Below are positions 1,332 through 38,535 of a stretch of 64,000 bases of DNA, one piece after another (the first letter of the stretch is position 1; each line of letters starts with the position of its first letter). The stretch lies in contig NZ_FOJA01000001.1 in assembly GCF_900110535.1 (NCBI RefSeq), forward strand, positions 930,001 to 994,000. The letters are read 5' to 3'. A program made the translations under genes and the position numbers. Origin of the DNA: Halobacterium jilantaiense. Its GTDB lineage: Archaea > Halobacteriota > Halobacteria > Halobacteriales > Halobacteriaceae. Below the pieces are notes generated by a model, which was not told the origin of the DNA, made no database searches, and was given only the letters and a program-made list of their open reading frames with translations.

Positions 1332-1571
1332 GGACGGGGCGCTGCCACCGGACCGCGCGCGTCGTCCGGTACGGTTCACGCGGCTCCCACAGTGTGTCAC
1401 CGCCACTCCTCGAACGTGATGCAGCCAGAGCAACCCTCACGGGGCGAAACCGGCCGACAGCCGGGGAAACCGAAGGTATCATCATCGGTCACCGCCACCT
1501 GCCGAACACGACAATGACGACAGCTACGCGGCCGCCCGACGGGGTGCGGCCCGAACCACCGGAGGTGAGAG

Positions 1572-2681
1572 ATGTCGGGGGCTGACCTGCTCGTCCCGGT
1601 CGAGGACTCCGTGTCGCTCAGGCAGACGGTCGCGCACGTCGCCGAGCGCGCCCGGGACGCCGGCGTCCCGGTGACGCTACACTTCGTCTGCCCGATCTCC
1701 GAGCGTCCGGTCGGCGGCGGGGACAGCGAGGTCGCGGGCGACGCCGAAGCGTTGCTCGACCGCATCGAAGTGTGGGCCGAGGAGGACCTCGGGGAGCACA
1801 GCGAGGACGTCTCCGTGGTGACTAGCGTCGTCGGGGCCGACGTGTACCTGTTCAATCCCGGCGACTACGCAGACGTGCTGGTCGCGTACGCGCGGCGGAA
1901 CGGCGTCGATACCGTCGTCCTCGACCCAGAGTTCAATCCGCTCGGCATGGCACCGCTACTGCCGCCGCTGGAGCGCGAGCTGGAGGCGGCGGGTCTGAAC
2001 GCCGAACTCGCACCGGTAGAGCGCGCGACCCGGCGCGGGCCGCTCACGCGGCCGGCCGGCCTCGACCAGTTCGTGTTACTGTTCGCGTCGACGTTCGGCT
2101 TCTACCTCCTGATTGCTGGCGAGCTGACCGTGTTCAATGTTGCGACCGGGGCGGTCACGGGGACAATCGTCGCCGCGCTGCTCCGGCGCATCACTACTCG
2201 CGGGTCCGTCGACCTGCCGGGGTTAGCTGGTCGCCTCGGTCGGATGGCGCTGTACGTGCCGTACCTGCTGTGGGAGATCGTGAAAGCGAACATCAGCATC
2301 GCGAAGGTTGTGCTCCACCCGCGGCTCCCCATCGACCCGAAAGTCGTGGAGTTCGACGCCGCGGTCTGGTCTGAGCTCCCGGCGACGACGCTCGCGAACA
2401 GCATCACACTCACACCGGGGACCCTCACCGTGGACGTGACCCAGCGACACTTCACCGTCCACAGCCTGACGACGGGGTCGCGGTCCGACCTGCTGGCGGG
2501 CGGCCTGGAGCGCGCCGTGCGGTTCGTCTTCTACGGGCGTGCAGCGATGCGGCTGCCGACCCCAGCCGAACGCGGCGAGACGATGGACGGCAGCGTCGAC
2601 GGGGCCCGCAGCGACGACGCCGACGAGGTGCAGGCGGCCATCGAGCGCGTCGAATCCGACACCGGGGGTGGTGAAGAGTGA
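1572..2681 (+). CDS. mnhE: Mrp antiporter subunit E with an N-terminal USP-like domain
   Basis: First gene of the Mrp-type Na+/H+ antiporter operon. A strong Shine-Dalgarno GGAGGTGA lies five bases before the ATG. Residues from about 160 form the membrane MnhE domain (hydrophobic FVLLFASTFGFYLLIAG, then a segment with LPATTLANSITLTPGTLTVDV, the family hallmark). The first 150 or so residues are soluble and resemble a universal-stress-protein fold (opening LLVPVEDSVSLRQTVAHVAERA, then VDTVVLDPEFNP). This makes the protein about twice the length of bacterial MnhE. It overlaps mnhF by four bases (GTGA). Confidence 0.9.
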   Translation: MSGADLLVPVEDSVSLRQTVAHVAERARDAGVPVTLHFVCPISERPVGGGDSEVAGDAEALLDRIEVWAEEDLGEHSEDVSVVTSVVGADVYLFNPGDYADVLVAYARRNGVDTVVLDPEFNPLGMAPLLPPLERELEAAGLNAELAPVERATRRGPLTRPAGLDQFVLLFASTFGFYLLIAGELTVFNVATGAVTGTIVAALLRRITTRGSVDLPGLAGRLGRMALYVPYLLWEIVKANISIAKVVLHPRLPIDPKVVEFDAAVWSELPATTLANSITLTPGTLTVDVTQRHFTVHSLTTGSRSDLLAGGLERAVRFVFYGRAAMRLPTPAERGETMDGSVDGARSDDADEVQAAIERVESDTGGGEE

Positions 2682-26381: not shown

Positions 26382-26406
26382 AAATACATACTTTAGACTG
26401 GGCTAA
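26382..26406 (+). promoter_or_regulatory. Promoter and candidate metal-regulator operator
   Basis: AAATACATA (26382-26390) is a TATA-like element about 30 bases before the ATG at 26421. Directly after it lies TTAG-ACTGGG-CTAA (26393-26406), an inverted repeat resembling half sites of DtxR/MntR operators (TTAG/CTAA). Its place between TATA box and expected transcription start would suit autorepression. Confidence 0.45.
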
Positions 26407-26420
26407 TTCGAGCCAGCTAG

Positions 26421-27113
26421 ATGCTCTCAGACGTAATGGAGGACTACCTGAAAGCCGTCTACACGCTCGAACGCGAACACGGGCCGCCGGTGAAGACGTC
26501 CACCATCGCCGACTACCTCGACGTCACCTCCCCTACGGTCACCAGCATGGTCGAGAAGCTGGCCGACCGCGGACTCGTCGAACGCGAGAAGTACAAGGGC
26601 GTCGAACTCACTCCCGACGGCGAAACCGTCGCCGTCGAAGTCCTGCGCCACCACCGGCTGCTGGAAGCGTTCCTCGCCGACCACCTCGACTACGAGTGGG
26701 ACGAAGTCCACGACGAGGCCGACGCGCTCGAACACCACATCAGCGAGGAGTTCGAGCGCCGGCTCGCCCGCAAGCTCGGGGACCCCACTGTCGACCCCCA
26801 CGGCGACCCGATTCCGGGCGCGGACCTCGAACCACCCGAACACGGCGACACCGAAGTGCTCGCCGACCACGACGAAGGCGACCGCCTCGTCGTCGCGCGC
26901 GTGAGCGACCGCGACACCGACGAACTCCGCTACCTCGCCGACGTGGGCGTCCAGCCCGGCACCGAACTCACGCTCCGCGAACACGCCCCCATCGGGATGT
27001 TCGTCGTGCGCATCGACGGCGAGGACGTCCACCTCCCCGAACGCGTCGCGGGGACTCTCGAAGTGCGGCCGGCCGACGATGGCGACGGCGACCAGGAGGT
27101 GGCGGACGCGTGA
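26421..27113 (+). CDS. DtxR/MntR-family metal-dependent regulator with SH3-like domain
   Basis: 230-residue repressor. The N-terminal winged helix (about 1-70) contains KTSTIADYLDVTSPTVTSMVEKLADRGLVE. The dimerisation/metal domain (about 70-135) has RHHRLLEAFLADHLDYEWDEVHDEADALEHHISEEFERR with the His/Glu/Asp ligand pattern. A FeoA/SH3-like C-terminal domain runs from about 140. Manganese or iron is the likely corepressor. It overlaps the GDT1-type transporter by four bases, so the pair looks like a metal-homeostasis operon. Confidence 0.9.
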   Translation: MLSDVMEDYLKAVYTLEREHGPPVKTSTIADYLDVTSPTVTSMVEKLADRGLVEREKYKGVELTPDGETVAVEVLRHHRLLEAFLADHLDYEWDEVHDEADALEHHISEEFERRLARKLGDPTVDPHGDPIPGADLEPPEHGDTEVLADHDEGDRLVVARVSDRDTDELRYLADVGVQPGTELTLREHAPIGMFVVRIDGEDVHLPERVAGTLEVRPADDGDGDQEVADA

Positions 27114-27835
27114 GCACGTTCCTCGAAATCGCGGGCATCGCGTTCGCCGCCCAGCTCGCCGTGCTGCCGGGGGAGAAAGTCCAGTTCATCATCGCCGGCC
27201 TCAGCACCGAGTACGACCCGAGAGTCGTGGTCGCCGCCGCCGGCTCGGCGTTCGCCATCTGGACCGCAATCGAGATTGTCGTCGGCGAAGCCCTCCAGCG
27301 CGCCATCCCCGGCGTCGTCCTCGACGTCGCCACGGCGGCCCTCTTCGTCGTCTTCGGGCTGTTGCTCCTGCGGTCGATGCCCGCCGACGGCGCTGACAGC
27401 CAGATGACCAGCGACGGCGGCTTCGTCGATGTCGGCGGCCGCATCGGGAACGCCTCCCTGTTCGGGCGCAGCCTCACCACCGCCGCCGGCGGCTTCCTCC
27501 CCATCTTCGCCATGATGTTCGCGGGCGAGTTCGGCGACAAGACCCAGCTCATCACCATCGGGCTGGCCGCCGACTACGGCGCTACCCCCGCAATCTGGGT
27601 CGGCGAGATGCTCGCCATCATTCCGGTCAGCATGGTGAACGCGTACTTCTTCGACCGGTTCTCCGGTGCCTTCGACGCCCGGAAAGCGCACCTCGCGTCG
27701 GCCGCCCTGTTCTTCTTCTTCGCGCTGGACACCGTGCTCGCCGTCACCGTCGGCGTCTCCATCTGGGAGCGCGTCGTCGCCGCCGGCGCGTGGGTCCTCG
27801 ACGCCGTCGTCCCCGCGCTCGCTGTTCTGCCGTGA
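27110..27835 (+). CDS. TMEM165/GDT1-family cation transporter (asymmetric motif)
   Basis: 241-residue membrane protein with six helices in two repeats. The family motif E-x-G-D-K-T is intact in the second repeat (AGEFGDKTQLITI, about 138-150). The first repeat reads AVLPGEKVQFII (about 17-28), so the acidic residue before Gly and the Thr are changed and Asp is Glu. GDT1 proteins exchange Mn2+ or Ca2+ for protons. Coupling to a DtxR/MntR-type regulator by a GTGA overlap points to manganese export, as an inference. Confidence 0.87.
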   Translation: MSTFLEIAGIAFAAQLAVLPGEKVQFIIAGLSTEYDPRVVVAAAGSAFAIWTAIEIVVGEALQRAIPGVVLDVATAALFVVFGLLLLRSMPADGADSQMTSDGGFVDVGGRIGNASLFGRSLTTAAGGFLPIFAMMFAGEFGDKTQLITIGLAADYGATPAIWVGEMLAIIPVSMVNAYFFDRFSGAFDARKAHLASAALFFFFALDTVLAVTVGVSIWERVVAAGAWVLDAVVPALAVLP

Positions 27836-32924: not shown

Positions 32925-32997
32925 TAGTCCCGGGCGGATTCGAACCGCCGTCATGGGCTCCAAAGGCCCATATGATTGGCCACTACACCACGGGACT
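32925..32997 (-). tRNA. tRNA-Gln (TTG)
   Basis: A 73-base cloverleaf on the minus strand: acceptor AGTCCCG/CGGGACT with discriminator A, anticodon stem TGGGC/GCCCA with loop CTTTGGA (anticodon TTG, plus-strand 32961-32963) and T-stem GGCGG/CCGCC with loop TTCGAAT. No intron, and CCA is not encoded. The 164-base stretches on each side hold no other credible gene. Confidence 0.95.
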
Positions 32998-33161: not shown

Positions 33162-33599
33162 TCAGTCGTCGGCTTCCACGGCTTCTTCCTCGACGAGGTA
33201 GCCACAGGCGTCGGCCTCGGCGTCGAAGCAGTCGGGACACTGCGGCTCGCGGTCGATAATCATGTCCAGCCGGTCCGCGACCGTCTCGTCGATGACGGGC
33301 TCGAGCTGGCGGGCTTCCGCGCGGTAATCGTCGACCTCGAGGACGTTCGCGAGGAAGCGTTCGAGGATGCAGTACGTCTGGAGCGCCTCGCGAGCGCGGG
33401 CTTCACCGTCGTCGGTCACGGTCGCACCCTTGTACTTCTCGTGTGCGACGAGGCCGCGCTCCTCGAGTTTCCCTACCATCTCGTTGACGCTCGCCGGGCT
33501 GACGCCGAGTCGGTCGGCGAGTTCCCCGGTCGCCGCGGGGCCGTCGTTCAACTCCTCCACGAGGAAAATCGTCTTCAGGTACTGGTCTGCGGTGTTCAC
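33162..33599 (-). CDS. DtxR-family iron-dependent regulator with C-terminal cysteine motif
   Basis: 145-residue repressor without the SH3 domain found in the 26421 protein. The winged helix is AATGELADRLGVSPASVNEMVGKLEERGLV. The metal/dimer domain is LQTYCILERFLANVLEVDDYRAEARQLEPVIDETVADRL. The tail CPDCFDAEADACGY adds three cysteines, as in several haloarchaeal iron regulators. GTG start with GAGGTGA seven bases before. It ends the sufCBD-ferritin run on the same strand, suggesting control of iron-sulfur assembly and storage. Confidence 0.88.
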   Translation of the reverse strand: MNTADQYLKTIFLVEELNDGPAATGELADRLGVSPASVNEMVGKLEERGLVAHEKYKGATVTDDGEARAREALQTYCILERFLANVLEVDDYRAEARQLEPVIDETVADRLDMIIDREPQCPDCFDAEADACGYLVEEEAVEADD

Positions 33600-33639: not shown

Positions 33640-34134
33640 TCATGTTCGGTCCTCCATCAGTCCCGCGACGGCTTCGACGCCCTCCGCTTCGGCCGCCCGA
33701 ATGTCCCGGAGCGTCGCCAGCAACGCTTCGCGGTCGACGCCGAACTCGGCGTCGCTGGCCTCGATGGCGTCCACGAGGTCGTCGTAGAACTTGTACGCGG
33801 TCTCCTCGCCGTGCAGTTGGTCGTAGAGCACGCCGTCGAAGTCCTCCGGGCCGGTCTGCCCGTAGCTCTCCGCGACCAGCGCCTCCACCTCCTCGAAGGG
33901 AATGCTATCGGCGTCCAAGTCTTCGATGACGGATTCGAGAAGTTCCCGGTGCTCGGCGGACTCCTCGCTGGCCTCCGAGAGCAACGCCTCGATGTCGTCG
34001 TCGCGGTCGGTCTCCGGCAGCGACTGGTAGTGCCGGTGGGCGCGCACCTCGACGACCTCCTCGAGGACGACGCCGATCTGCAGCAGGCGCGCGAGCTGCG
34101 TGTCGGTGTCGACGCGCGCTGCGACGGAACTCAC
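33640..34134 (-). CDS. Ferritin-like diiron protein
   Basis: 164-residue helical protein of the ferritin/rubrerythrin-like superfamily. It shows four-helix-bundle features: LLQIGVVLEEVVEVRAHRHYQSL, EASEESAEHRELLESVIEDLDAD (E-x-x-x-H pattern) and YDQLHGEETAYKFYDDLVDAIEAS (E-x-x-x-x-K/Y helix). Role: iron storage or delivery near Suf and DtxR. GTG at 34134 is chosen since GAGGTG lies six bases upstream; a GTG three codons earlier is an alternative. The stop overlaps a 15-codon frame leading to dtxR. Confidence 0.8.
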   Translation of the reverse strand: MSSVAARVDTDTQLARLLQIGVVLEEVVEVRAHRHYQSLPETDRDDDIEALLSEASEESAEHRELLESVIEDLDADSIPFEEVEALVAESYGQTGPEDFDGVLYDQLHGEETAYKFYDDLVDAIEASDAEFGVDREALLATLRDIRAAEAEGVEAVAGLMEDRT

Positions 34135-34219
34135 GGCAGCCACCTCGCGAGCGGTACAGTCTCCATGTTGTCGGGTAGTCGTCCGAAGCGGACTTAAGCC
34201 GTTCCCTCTCGGGGGCGGC

Positions 34220-35434
34220 TTACGCGAGGCGCTCGGCGATGCGCGTCTCGAGATCCTCGCGGAGTTCGTCGACCTCCACTTCCTCGAGCACGGGGACGAA
34301 GAAGCCCTCGACGAGCATGTCCTTGGCCTGCTGCTCGGTGAGGCCGCGGCCCTGCATGTAGAACAGCGTCTCCTGGTCGACCTGACCGACGGTCGCCGAG
34401 TGCGACGCCTCGGTGTCGTGGTTGTTGATGATGAGCTTCGGGGAGGCGTCGGCCTCGCTCTCGTCGCTCAGCATCAGGGTGTTCTCGCGCTGGTAGCTCG
34501 ACGTGTCCCAGGCCTCGCGGCCGACGTCCTGGACGCCCTCGTAGACGCTTCGGGCCTCGTCGTCGATGACGCCGCGAGTCACGAGGTCGGCAGTCGTGTG
34601 CTCGGCTCGGTGCCAGACCTTCGCGTCGAGGTCGAAGTGCTGGTCGTCGTGGCCGAAGAACGCGCCGACGATCTTCGTCTCGCTGCCGTCGCCGTTCAGC
34701 TCCGTGGCAACGCCGGTTTTCGTCAGCCGGCTGCCGAGGTTCCCCTCGATCCAGTTGACCGTACTGTAGGTGCCGGCGTCGCCGCGTTTGACGGTGTAAT
34801 TGTACGTCTGCTGGTCGAAGTCCTGAAGACTTCCGTACTGGACGTAGGAGTTCTCGCCCGCGTCGACTTCGACGATGCCGCTGTAGTAGCGCTCGCCCTC
34901 GACCTCGTCGCCGGTGTCCTGGCGCTCCAAGATGGTGGCGGAGGCGTTCGTCTCGGTGACGACGAGCGTGTAGTTGAACAGCGACCGCGAGTTCATGGAC
35001 GTCCGGATGGTGACGTCCTCGGCGTCGACGCCCTCGGGGACGTAGACGACCGTCCCCGTCGTGAACAGCGCCGTCGACAGCGCCGTCAGGCGGTTCTGCT
35101 GCGGGTCGACGACGCTGCCGAAGTGCTCCTCGACGAGGTCGGCGAGGTCGTCGTCCTGCAGGGCGTCGTGGAATGACTCCACGCGGGCGTTCTCAGCGCC
35201 GACCTGGTCTTTGTCCTCGGTCTGCGTGAGCGGGTCGACGAGCGCCTCGAAGTCGAGGTCCTCGAGGTTCGTCCACTTCCGACCGGGCGTCTGGATGACG
35301 CTCGGGTAGTCGAGGTCGTCGAGCGTGTCGAGCGCGTCGAGTCGCGTCTCGAGGAGCCACTCGGGCTCGTCGCGCTCCTCGGCGAGCTGGCGTACCGTCT
35401 CTTCGGAGATGTCCTTGTGTAGCTGCGTGCTCAT
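34220..35434 (-). CDS. sufD: Fe-S cluster assembly protein SufD
   Basis: 404-residue partner of SufB in the SufBC2D scaffold that builds iron-sulfur clusters. Right-handed beta-helix core, with LRGV-type rungs such as VNWIEGNLGSRLTKTGVATELNGDGSETKIVGAFFGHDDQHFDL, and the C-terminal ESEADASPKLIINNHDTEASHSATVGQVDQETLFYMQGRGLTEQQAKDMLVEGF typical of SufB/SufD. One base separates it from sufB. Confidence 0.95.
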   Translation of the reverse strand: MSTQLHKDISEETVRQLAEERDEPEWLLETRLDALDTLDDLDYPSVIQTPGRKWTNLEDLDFEALVDPLTQTEDKDQVGAENARVESFHDALQDDDLADLVEEHFGSVVDPQQNRLTALSTALFTTGTVVYVPEGVDAEDVTIRTSMNSRSLFNYTLVVTETNASATILERQDTGDEVEGERYYSGIVEVDAGENSYVQYGSLQDFDQQTYNYTVKRGDAGTYSTVNWIEGNLGSRLTKTGVATELNGDGSETKIVGAFFGHDDQHFDLDAKVWHRAEHTTADLVTRGVIDDEARSVYEGVQDVGREAWDTSSYQRENTLMLSDESEADASPKLIINNHDTEASHSATVGQVDQETLFYMQGRGLTEQQAKDMLVEGFFVPVLEEVEVDELREDLETRIAERLA

Positions 35435-35435
35435 G

Positions 35436-36860
35436 TTATCCGAGACTCCCCTCCATCTCGAGCTCGATGAGGCGGTTCAGTTCGACCGCGTACTCGATGG
35501 GTAGCTCCTCCGTGATCGGCTCGATGAACCCGGAGACGATCATCTGCTTGGCGTCGTCGTCGTCGAGGCCGCGGCTCTGGAGGTAGAAGACGTCCTCGTC
35601 GCCGATCTTCCCGACGGTCGCCTCGTGGGCGACGTCGACCTTCGACTCGTTGATCTCCATGTACGGCATGGTGTCGCTGGTCGACTCGTTGTCGAACATC
35701 AGCGCGTCGCACTCGACGTTCGTCTTCGAGTCCTCCGCGCCGTCCGCGATGTGGACGAGGCCGCGGTAGTTCGTGCGGCCGCCGTCTTTCGCGACGGACT
35801 TCGACTCGATTGTGGACTTCGTCTCCGGGGCGTTGTGGTAGACCTTCGCGCCGGTGTCGATGTTCTGTCCCTCGCCCGCGAACGCGATGGTGATGTGGTT
35901 GTCAGTCGCGCCGCGGCCCTTGAGGATGGTCGACGGGTACAGCATCGTCGCCTTCGACCCCATGGAGCCCGAAACCCACTCCATCGTGCCGTTCTTCTCG
36001 CAGATGGCGCGCTTCGTGTTGAGGTTGAACGTGTTCTTCGACCAGTTCTGGACGGTCGAGTACTGCACGTGCGCGTCCTCGCCGACGTACACTTCGACGC
36101 CGCCGGAGTGGAGGTTGTGGCTCGCGTACTTCGGAGCCGAGCAGCCCTCGATGTAGTGGACCTCGGAGCCCTTCTCGGCGATGATGAGCGTGTGCTCGAA
36201 CTGGCCCATGCCCTCGGAGTTCATCCGGAAGTAGGCCTGCACCGGCATGTTCACCGTGACGTCCTCGGGGACGTACACGAACGACCCGCCCGACCAGACA
36301 GCGCCGTGGAGTGCGGCGAACTTGTTGTCGCTGGCGGGCACGCAGTCCGTCATGAAGTGCTCTTTGACGAGCTCCGGGTGCTCCCGAACGGCCTCGTCCA
36401 TGTTGCAGAAGACGACGCCCTTCTCCTCCCAGCGCTCCTGCATGTTCTGGTAGACGACCTCCGACTCGTACTGCGCGCCGACGCCGGAGAGCGCGTTGCG
36501 CTCCGCCTCGGGGATGCCCAGCTGCTCGAAGGTGTCCTGAATGTTCTCGGGGAGTTCGTCCCAGTCGTCGACGCCCTCGCGCTTGTCAACGTCCGGTCGG
36601 ATGTACGGGACGATCTCCTCGATGTCGAGCTCGGAGAGGTCCGGCTGGCCCGGCCAGTCCGTCGGCATCGGCATCTTCTTGTACTGTTCGAGTGCGCGGA
36701 GGCGGCGCTCGAGCATCCAGTCGGGCTCGTCTTTGTCCTCGGAGATGACGCGAATCGTCTCCTCGGTCAGGCCCTTCTCGGACTCGAAGGCGGACTCCTC
36801 CTCCTTCTTGAACTCGAAACGCGCCTCGGTGTCAGTGTCTTGTATGTCTTCGGAACTCAT
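35436..36860 (-). CDS. sufB: Fe-S cluster assembly protein SufB
   Basis: 474-residue scaffold of the Suf complex. Marker segments are VVYQNMQERWEEKGVVFCNMDEAVREHPELVKEHF, EGCSAPKYASHNLHSGGVEVYVGEDAHVQYSTVQNWSKNTFNLNTKRA (cluster-scaffold cysteine in GCSAP) and VECDALMFDNESTSDTMPYMEINESKVDVAHEATVGKIGDEDVFYLQSRG. Lies 33 bases after sufC on the minus strand. Confidence 0.97.
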   Translation of the reverse strand: MSSEDIQDTDTEARFEFKKEEESAFESEKGLTEETIRVISEDKDEPDWMLERRLRALEQYKKMPMPTDWPGQPDLSELDIEEIVPYIRPDVDKREGVDDWDELPENIQDTFEQLGIPEAERNALSGVGAQYESEVVYQNMQERWEEKGVVFCNMDEAVREHPELVKEHFMTDCVPASDNKFAALHGAVWSGGSFVYVPEDVTVNMPVQAYFRMNSEGMGQFEHTLIIAEKGSEVHYIEGCSAPKYASHNLHSGGVEVYVGEDAHVQYSTVQNWSKNTFNLNTKRAICEKNGTMEWVSGSMGSKATMLYPSTILKGRGATDNHITIAFAGEGQNIDTGAKVYHNAPETKSTIESKSVAKDGGRTNYRGLVHIADGAEDSKTNVECDALMFDNESTSDTMPYMEINESKVDVAHEATVGKIGDEDVFYLQSRGLDDDDAKQMIVSGFIEPITEELPIEYAVELNRLIELEMEGSLG

Positions 36861-36893: not shown

Positions 36894-37805
36894 TTACGCG
36901 GTCTCGTAGACCTGCTCGCGGACCCAGTCGTAGCCCTCGTCCTCGAGCTTCTCGGCGAGTTCGGCGTCGCCCTCCATGACGACCTCACCGTCGAGCATGA
37001 TGTGGACGCGGTCGGGTTCGACGTAGTCGAGGATGCGCTGGTAGTGCGTAATCTGGAGGATACCGGTGCCCTGCTCGTCGCGGAGCGCGTTGATGCCCTC
37101 GGAGACGTCCTGCAGGCGGTCGATGTCCAGCCCGGAGTCGATCTCGTCGAGCACGGCGATGCTCGGCTCGAGGATGGCGGCCTGAAGGACCTCGTTCTGC
37201 TTCTTCTCGCCGCCGGAGAAGCCCGCGTTCAGGTAGCGGTTCGCGAACTTCTCGTCCATGTCGAGCAGCTCCATCTTCTCGGAGAGCAGCTCCTGGAACT
37301 CGGCGACGCCGATTTCGCCCTCGTCGGCGGGCCCCTCCATCGGGGAGTTCTCGTAGCCCGCGTCGTCCTCTTCGTCGTCCTCGTCGCCCTCACCGAAGAG
37401 GAGTTCGTCGCGCTCTTCGAGGCTGGCGTTGAGCGCCGTGCGGAGGAAGTTCACGAGTGTGACGCCCTCGATTTCGGCGGGGTACTGGAAGCCGAGGTAG
37501 ATGCCGAGCGCGGCGCGCTCGTTCGGCTCCAGGTCAAGCAGGTCGAAGGTGCGTTCGTCCTCGGGGACGTCTTCGACGCCCTCGAAGTCGCCGTCTTCGA
37601 GCGTGAGCAGTACTTCGCCGTCGGTGACGTCGTAGGCGGGGTGGCCGGCGATGACCTTCGCCGTGGTGGACTTCCCGGAGCCGTTGGGGCCCATGAGGGC
37701 GTGAATCTCCCCGGAGGGAATCTCGAGGTTCACGCCTTCGAGAATCGTCTCACCGCCGTCCTCAGCCACTTCCGCGTGTACGTCGTTGAGTTGGAGCGTA
37801 GCCAT
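36894..37805 (-). CDS. sufC: Fe-S cluster assembly ATPase SufC
   Basis: 303-residue ABC-type ATPase that powers the SufB-SufD scaffold. Walker A MGPNGSGKSTTAKV (about 38-51), signature GFSGGEKKQNEVLQ, Walker B SIAVLDEIDSGLDID and the switch ITHYQRILDY. An acidic insertion (FGEGDEDDEEDDAGYENSPMEGPADEGE, about 135-165) makes it longer than bacterial SufC, as in other haloarchaea. First gene of the sufCBD transcript, with a DtxR-like palindrome right before the start codon. Confidence 0.96.
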   Translation of the reverse strand: MATLQLNDVHAEVAEDGGETILEGVNLEIPSGEIHALMGPNGSGKSTTAKVIAGHPAYDVTDGEVLLTLEDGDFEGVEDVPEDERTFDLLDLEPNERAALGIYLGFQYPAEIEGVTLVNFLRTALNASLEERDELLFGEGDEDDEEDDAGYENSPMEGPADEGEIGVAEFQELLSEKMELLDMDEKFANRYLNAGFSGGEKKQNEVLQAAILEPSIAVLDEIDSGLDIDRLQDVSEGINALRDEQGTGILQITHYQRILDYVEPDRVHIMLDGEVVMEGDAELAEKLEDEGYDWVREQVYETA

Positions 37806-37808
37806 CGA

Positions 37809-37822
37809 TTAGGTCATCCTAA
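37809..37822 (-). promoter_or_regulatory. Perfect TTAGG-N4-CCTAA palindrome before sufC
   Basis: TTAGG-TCAT-CCTAA lies three bases upstream of the sufC start codon. A TATA-like CCGTTATAGG (minus strand, 37838-37847) is about 25 bases further upstream, so the palindrome covers the predicted transcription start. TTAGG/CCTAA are the outer half sites of DtxR/IdeR operators, and a DtxR gene ends the same gene run. Confidence 0.6.
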
Positions 37823-37911
37823 ACAACGTCCGTGAGGCCTATAACGGTTGCGGATTTCACCGTCGTTGTTTCCTCGACGAGAAAAATGAATTTGTGAATC
37901 GGAAAATCACG

Positions 37912-38215
37912 TCAGTCGTCGGCGACGACGGGGTCCCCGTGTTCCACCCGGGTTCCGAGGACGTCGAGGAACTGCGAGAGCCACTCGGCGTGGTCGGGCC
38001 AGGCCTGCGCAGTCACGAGGTTTCCGTCGGTCGTCACCTCGTCGACCCACGTGCAGCCGGCCGCCTCGCACTCGGGTCGAACGGCCGGATACGACGTCAG
38101 CTCGTACCCGTCGAGGACCCCAGCGGCCGCCAGCACCTGTGGCCCGTGGCAGAGCGTCGCCACGGGCTTGTCCGCGTCGAAGAAGTGCTGTACGGTCTCG
38201 ATGACCTCGTCTTCG
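37912..38215 (-). pseudogene. DJ-1/PfpI gene fragment (5' end lost)
   Basis: The minus frame encodes the C-terminal half of a PfpI-type protein: DEVIETVQHFFDADKPVATLCHGPQVLAAAGVLDGYELTSYPAVRP (nucleophile Cys kept) to the natural end FLDVLGTRVEHGDPVVADD. Homology stops near 38215; further upstream the frame is only antisense to the neighbouring SDR fragment and lacks the N-terminal Rossmann half. It is therefore a truncated remnant. Confidence 0.75.
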
Positions 38216-38216
38216 T

Positions 38217-38535
38217 CGGGAGTTTCGCCGGTCAGTACCCCCGGCCGTTCAACCCCGTCTACGCCGTGACGAAGTGGTGGACGCGCGGCTTCGCGCACAG
38301 CGTCGAAGCCCGCTACGGCGACGACGGCGTCGCCGTCACCGTCGTCAACCCCAGCGAGGTCCGCACCCGGTTCAACGAGGCCGACGGCACCGCCTTCGAG
38401 GACGCCTTCGACGAGGGCGAGGTCTGCGAACCCGAAGACGTCGCCGACGCCATCGCGTTCGCCGCGACGACGGACGCACCCGCGACCGCGAGCGAAATCG
38501 ACGTCTACCGGCAGGACAAGTTCTCGCACTTCTGA
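38217..38535 (+). pseudogene. Short-chain dehydrogenase gene fragment (5' end lost)
   Basis: The plus frame from about 38217 encodes the last 105 or so residues of an SDR: GSFAGQYPRPFNPVYAVTKWWTRGFAHSVEARYGDDGVAVTVVNPSEVRTRF to VYRQDKFSHF. The catalytic YxxxK (YAVTK) is present, but the N-terminal NAD-binding half is missing. Upstream in this frame is antisense of the PfpI fragment. The two remnants meet head to head. Confidence 0.75.

Follow-up and report, generated by a model that had tools for sequence, protein, structure and literature searches.

An iron box at the sufC promoter of Halobacterium, a candidate operator of the suf-adjacent DtxR-family regulator TroR

Is the iron-sulfur (Fe-S) assembly operon sufCBD of this Halobacterium genome controlled by the DtxR-family regulator encoded in the same cluster? 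The question is raised by a palindrome at the sufC promoter, in the window (the whole 64-kb stretch of DNA analysed here). The first-pass annotation had described this palindrome as TTAGG-TCAT-CCTAA at 37809-37822, and its sequence, its coordinates and its distance of 3 nt (37806-37808) from the sufC ATG all proved correct. On the coding (minus) strand of sufC, whose leader is ccgTTATAggcctcacggacgttgtTTAGGATGACCTAAtcgATG, it reads TTAGG-ATGA-CCTAA. The two arms are complementary at 5/5 positions, and the four-nucleotide spacer is asymmetric (ATGA/TCAT). The TATA-like element reported upstream of the box is present as well, with the first T of its TTAT 22 nt before the box. The elements and genes are arranged as follows.

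37839..37844, minus strand: TATA-like element TTATAG of the sufC promoter; TTAT is conserved 22-23 or 32 nt before the box
37809..37822, minus strand: putative operator (iron box) TTAGG-ATGA-CCTAA, conserved in relatives and matching the 14-bp IdeR/DtxR consensus (PMC8464063)
37814..37817, minus strand: operator spacer ATGA, predicted transcription start region, coinciding with a class-wide initiator-like [AG]YGA(C) in the TATA-anchored leader alignment
36894..37805, minus strand: sufC, Fe-S assembly ATPase (TIGR01978)
35436..36860, minus strand: sufB (TIGR01980)
34220..35434, minus strand: sufD (TIGR01981)
33640..34143, minus strand: gene of a ferritin-like protein (Dps/bacterioferritin fold, predicted), paired with the regulator gene in relatives
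33162..33599, minus strand: DtxR-family regulator, TroR orthologue (PF01325 and PF02742)

The gene order sufC-sufB-sufD-ferritin-dtxR, which had been read as one same-strand run, was confirmed and recurs in most of the loci long enough to show it, including those of three Haloferax species. The last two genes probably form a transcription unit of their own, because ferritin and troR stay paired in relatives although the gap to sufD can grow to about 2.3 kb. Neither Pfam nor NCBIfam gave a match for the ferritin-like protein, and a search of solved structures with its profile found no relative by sequence. Its structure is predicted to be a ferritin-type bundle, closest in fold to Dps and bacterioferritin (Z about 16), and it is this predicted fold, of the ferritin superfamily, that supports the earlier ferritin-like label. 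Autoregulation of troR or of the ferritin-like gene through a TTAGG box was considered and rejected, as no site with at most one mismatch lies near either gene across 80 loci. Three further features were observed around the cluster. An 11-codon open reading frame (METVPLARWLP, 34131-34166) overlaps a start codon of the ferritin-like gene and has similar counterparts in loci L054 and L055; a tRNA-Gln gene (anticodon TTG, 32925-32997) lies just 3' of troR; and in the polB-sufC interval (37894-38535), remnants of two genes, one short-chain dehydrogenase-like and one of the DJ-1/PfpI type, overlap on opposite strands. The dehydrogenase-like copy looks truncated, since genome G093 has an intact gene of 290 aa at the same position.

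The actinobacterial IdeR/DtxR iron box is a 19-bp sequence, TTAGGTTAGSCTAACCTAA; IdeR can bind a half site as one dimer, and the 14-bp single-dimer form TTAGGNNNNCCTAA was proposed as the IdeR/DtxR target consensus (PMC8464063). The sufC box matches this 14-bp form with no mismatch, which bears out the recognition of TTAGG and CCTAA as DtxR/IdeR half sites, and it is the sole perfect match within the window. An exact match beside sufC would arise by chance with a probability of about 1.4e-5, given 21 possible positions and the rate obtained from reversed controls.

A motif scan of other iron genes, which the first-pass annotation had proposed as a check, was run on the whole genome and found 12 exact TTAGGNNNNCCTAA sites against 2 in reversed controls. 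Tolerating one mismatch removes most of the excess (20 sites against 16), so it is the exact form that counts. Genes of iron-uptake type stand behind 6 of the 12 sites, namely four Peripla_BP_2 genes or members of their cluster, one SBP_bac_8 gene and one FecCD permease gene; among the others are a DUF5059 lipoprotein, an RGP-type glycosyltransferase and a winged-helix regulator. Across haloarchaea, 190 of 194 genomes have more sites than controls, with totals of 2380 and 197. Judged by its fit to the consensus, its iron-uptake gene context and this class-wide excess, TTAGG..CCTAA is the iron box of the haloarchaeal class. The RGP-type glycosyltransferase gene was not expected among the iron-box genes, yet its membership is conserved, with boxes just before its start both here (two boxes; L002 1501-1561) and in G183 and G090 (L189; L194).

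At sufC itself, a box within two mismatches stands just 5' of the ATG in 27 of the 80 named relatives, 1-9 nt from the start codon, compared with 0.85% of shuffled leaders. In 0.96 Mb of suf loci, the sufC start holds 23 of the 25 matches with at most one mismatch. The families with the sufC box are Halobacteriaceae, Haloarculaceae and Haladaptataceae; H. salinarum DSM 3754 (L055) has the identical box in the identical place, and G093, another Halobacteriaceae genome, has a single exact box, which lies at sufC. On a tree of SufB and SufC, the box requires six changes, compared with 21.5 when labels are shuffled. A palindrome with 10 defined base pairs is expected about twice per genome by chance, and sister species have lost the box, both of which would suit a chance occurrence with no function in the Halobacterium species here; however, a probability in the order of 1e-5 at the sufC position makes this reading highly improbable, as does the presence of the box at one and the same promoter position in three families.

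The geometry of the promoter bears on a further alternative, in which the conserved sequence is a core promoter element (initiator), a translation start or an mRNA hairpin that happens to resemble an iron box. Two spacings between TATA and box occur, one helical turn apart: 22-23 nt (Halobacterium, Halospeciosus and most Haloarculaceae) and exactly 32 nt (Haladaptatus, Halorussus and Halorientalis). A class-wide conserved YGAC, probably the initiator on the basis of the leader alignment, falls inside the spacer at the shorter distance, whereas at the longer one it immediately precedes the box. Boxes of uptake genes usually have a C..G spacer. That the sufC spacer departs from this pattern counts against the operator reading, but the position of YGAC accounts for it. 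Conservation thus places the predicted start site of sufC in the box spacer. That the initiator-like YGAC occurs class-wide at the same TATA distance even where the box is missing, and that the box lies only 1-9 nt from the ATG, speak for a non-operator origin of the conservation. Against it, the flanks vary but the GG/CC cores and the outer TT/AA hardly change, box and initiator are separate in the 32-nt group, and the same box stands at unrelated iron genes. An RNA hairpin was ruled out, as arm positions are unpaired in 20 of the 27 relatives, with no compensating change in any of them. Altogether we regard this alternative as very unlikely, and favour an operator.

The sufC box is lineage-specific, because it is absent from Haloferacaceae and Natrialbaceae, which keep the suf-ferritin-TroR cluster, and has been lost in three Halobacterium species that have TTAGG boxes elsewhere in their genomes. 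Regulator and operator therefore do not always co-occur, and control of suf is evidently not essential, since two families and three Halobacterium species live without the box. The three species (G035, G094 and G067; leaders L026, L028 and L029) present a natural loss of the sufC operator within the genus Halobacterium. In G035 the box is replaced by the perfect palindrome CTCAG-ACGA-CTGAG, which was taken as decay, since its sisters G067 and G094 read TACAG-ACGA-CTGAG. An older palindrome at the same place in Natrialbaceae is also unconvincing, with a mean arm pairing of 2.5/5 at offset 22 compared with at most 2.6 elsewhere. In Haloarculaceae, one arm reads TTCGG or CCGAA. As a probe whose repeats carry G in place of T3 is not bound by IdeR (PMC8464063), these arms count against the operator reading.

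Which regulator reads the box? The genome encodes three DtxR-family proteins, SirR and the suf-adjacent TroR in the window and an Idr-like third one elsewhere (G000:C1:1538617); H. salinarum has four such genes, and a role in the homeostasis of iron or manganese has been ascribed to its Idr1, Idr2 and SirR (PMC5605881). The box might thus be a genuine iron-regulator operator whose main binder is the Idr-like protein or SirR, alone or together with TroR. The following features of the window concern SirR.

26393..26406, plus strand: distinct box before sirR, TTAGACTGGGCTAA
26421..27113, plus strand: sirR, the other DtxR-family gene of the window and rival binder

SirR is disfavoured by its own promoter, the box of which is related to the TTAGG box but distinct from it: of 17 genomes, 12 have TTAG[AC]NNNN[TG]CTAA at the sirR promoter, and not one has TTAGG..CCTAA there. 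A gene of a GDT1-family cation/proton antiporter (27110-27832) overlaps the end of sirR in the region 26393-27832; its position 3' of sirR points to manganese, and SirR looks like a manganese regulator with an exporter. As for Idr, TroR and SirR are the only two proteins with a DtxR dimerisation domain in genomes G033 and G140. Both nevertheless have TTAGG boxes, which stand at ABC transporter genes of the Fe(III) type, and the box can thus do without Idr. Given the distinct SirR box, TroR would be the protein that reads TTAGG boxes in these two genomes. By elimination, and by extension from G033 and G140, the TroR orthologue (33162-33599) is the best candidate for binding the sufC box, as the first-pass annotation had proposed for the neighbouring gene; a different main binder seems unlikely, although the Idr-like protein could share the site, which counts against a TroR-only reading.

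The other part of that proposal, if read as an ordinary iron-activated DtxR protein, was not supported in that form. TroR comprises a winged-helix domain (PF01325) and a dimerisation domain (PF02742), and its predicted fold is DtxR-like, matching DR2539, MntR, IdeR and DtxR; the model gives neither dimer nor metal geometry. The metal ligands of DtxR include Met10, His79, His98, Cys102 and His106. Alignment to solved DtxR-family proteins revealed that five of the eight canonical ligands are missing in TroR, where Gln6, Tyr76, Arg93, Arg97 and Pro101 stand at these positions, respectively, and that the ligands kept are glutamates only (Glu80, Glu95 and Glu100). In their place, all 58 of the TroR sequences compared share four cysteines, C77, C121, C124 and C132. 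With most canonical ligands gone and an invariant cysteine set instead, TroR is, by its alignment, not a classical Fe(II)-site sensor, and the missing ligands count against it as the box-binding iron regulator. Reduced Halobacteriaceae genomes (G001, G007 and G093) encode TroR-like paralogues that keep both the four cysteines and HEEAC..EH, the ligand motif of classical DtxR proteins.

L154, 1495-1908: TroR-like paralogue
L155, ~1501-1911, minus strand: TroR-like paralogue
L156, 1495-1911: TroR-like paralogue

These paralogues are apparent intermediates between DtxR and TroR, and they suggest an order of events in which the cysteine set arose before the classical site was lost in TroR. What looks like an in-frame TGA in the TroR-like genes of G001 and G007 is the normal stop codon of these genes. 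The cysteine set fits a cysteine-bound Fe or Zn ion or an Fe-S cluster in TroR, and a cluster would make biological sense beside suf.

Taken together, we propose, with a probability of about 0.68, that the sufCBD operon has its operator in this palindrome and that a DtxR-family iron regulator, in all likelihood the neighbouring TroR, acts there. In this model, a single TroR dimer on the 14-bp box would cover the predicted start in the 4-nt spacer and so prevent initiation. As long as cells are iron-replete (or Fe-S-replete), TroR would keep suf repressed along with the box-bearing iron-uptake genes, and iron limitation would release suf. We infer the binding, the repression, where transcription starts and in which direction iron acts. 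A more ambitious version, in which TroR, having given up the classical metal sites, is a DtxR-fold sensor of an Fe-S cluster or of cysteine-bound iron through its four invariant cysteines and represses sufCBD around its start in three families, as an archaeal, DtxR-derived counterpart of SufR/IscR, is tentative and on balance doubtful. TroR has in common with SufR/IscR the regulation of Fe-S assembly, the invariant cysteines and the operon linkage, but it has a different fold (DtxR family), and a cluster in TroR is hypothetical.

Compared with the actinobacterial IdeR/DtxR box, the haloarchaeal box is an exact 14-bp match and likewise stands at iron-uptake genes; it differs in belonging to an archaeal TATA promoter, where it brackets the initiator and not the bacterial promoter hexamers, and single-dimer boxes are apparently the rule in haloarchaea. 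For Corynebacterium, an earlier study predicted that DtxR controls the suf operon (PMC524172), with a DtxR-type box 5' of the Fe-S assembly operon as here; the corynebacterial cluster has a DeoR-type regulator gene, whereas the neighbour here is of the two-domain DtxR type with a cysteine set. Given this precedent, an iron box on suf is wiring of a known type, of which the present case is an archaeal member. No earlier report of the haloarchaeal sufC box was found in the literature consulted; Leyn and Rodionov 2015, Schmid 2011 and Martinez-Pastor 2017/2024 may contain it.

In Haloferax volcanii, HVO_0863 is named TroR, an iron regulator, and HVO_0819 is named SirR (PMC11349517). Three Haloferax loci have an orthologue about 70% identical to the regulator here, in the same suf-ferritin-troR order. 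From the locus numbering, we take HVO_0863 to lie beside suf. Despite the shared order, the three Haloferax loci have no sufC box, so suf is probably outside TroR control in Haloferax. Haloquadratum belongs to a family without the box, and its sufC and sufB1 rank with the most strongly expressed genes (PMC5496347), which is compatible with less repression there.

How Fe-S assembly is matched to iron supply in archaea is poorly known, and a conserved candidate operator is now found in the model organism H. salinarum, while Haloferax and Natrialbaceae, with TroR and without the sufC box, offer a natural contrast. Since the conserved residues of TroR are cysteines and not the usual DtxR ligands, what it senses becomes a sharp question; were it a sensor of Fe-S clusters or cysteine-bound iron, TroR would close a feedback loop on Fe-S assembly via the sufCBD operator. 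Iron-sulfur assembly and iron-uptake genes share the same box and are probably switched together by TroR.
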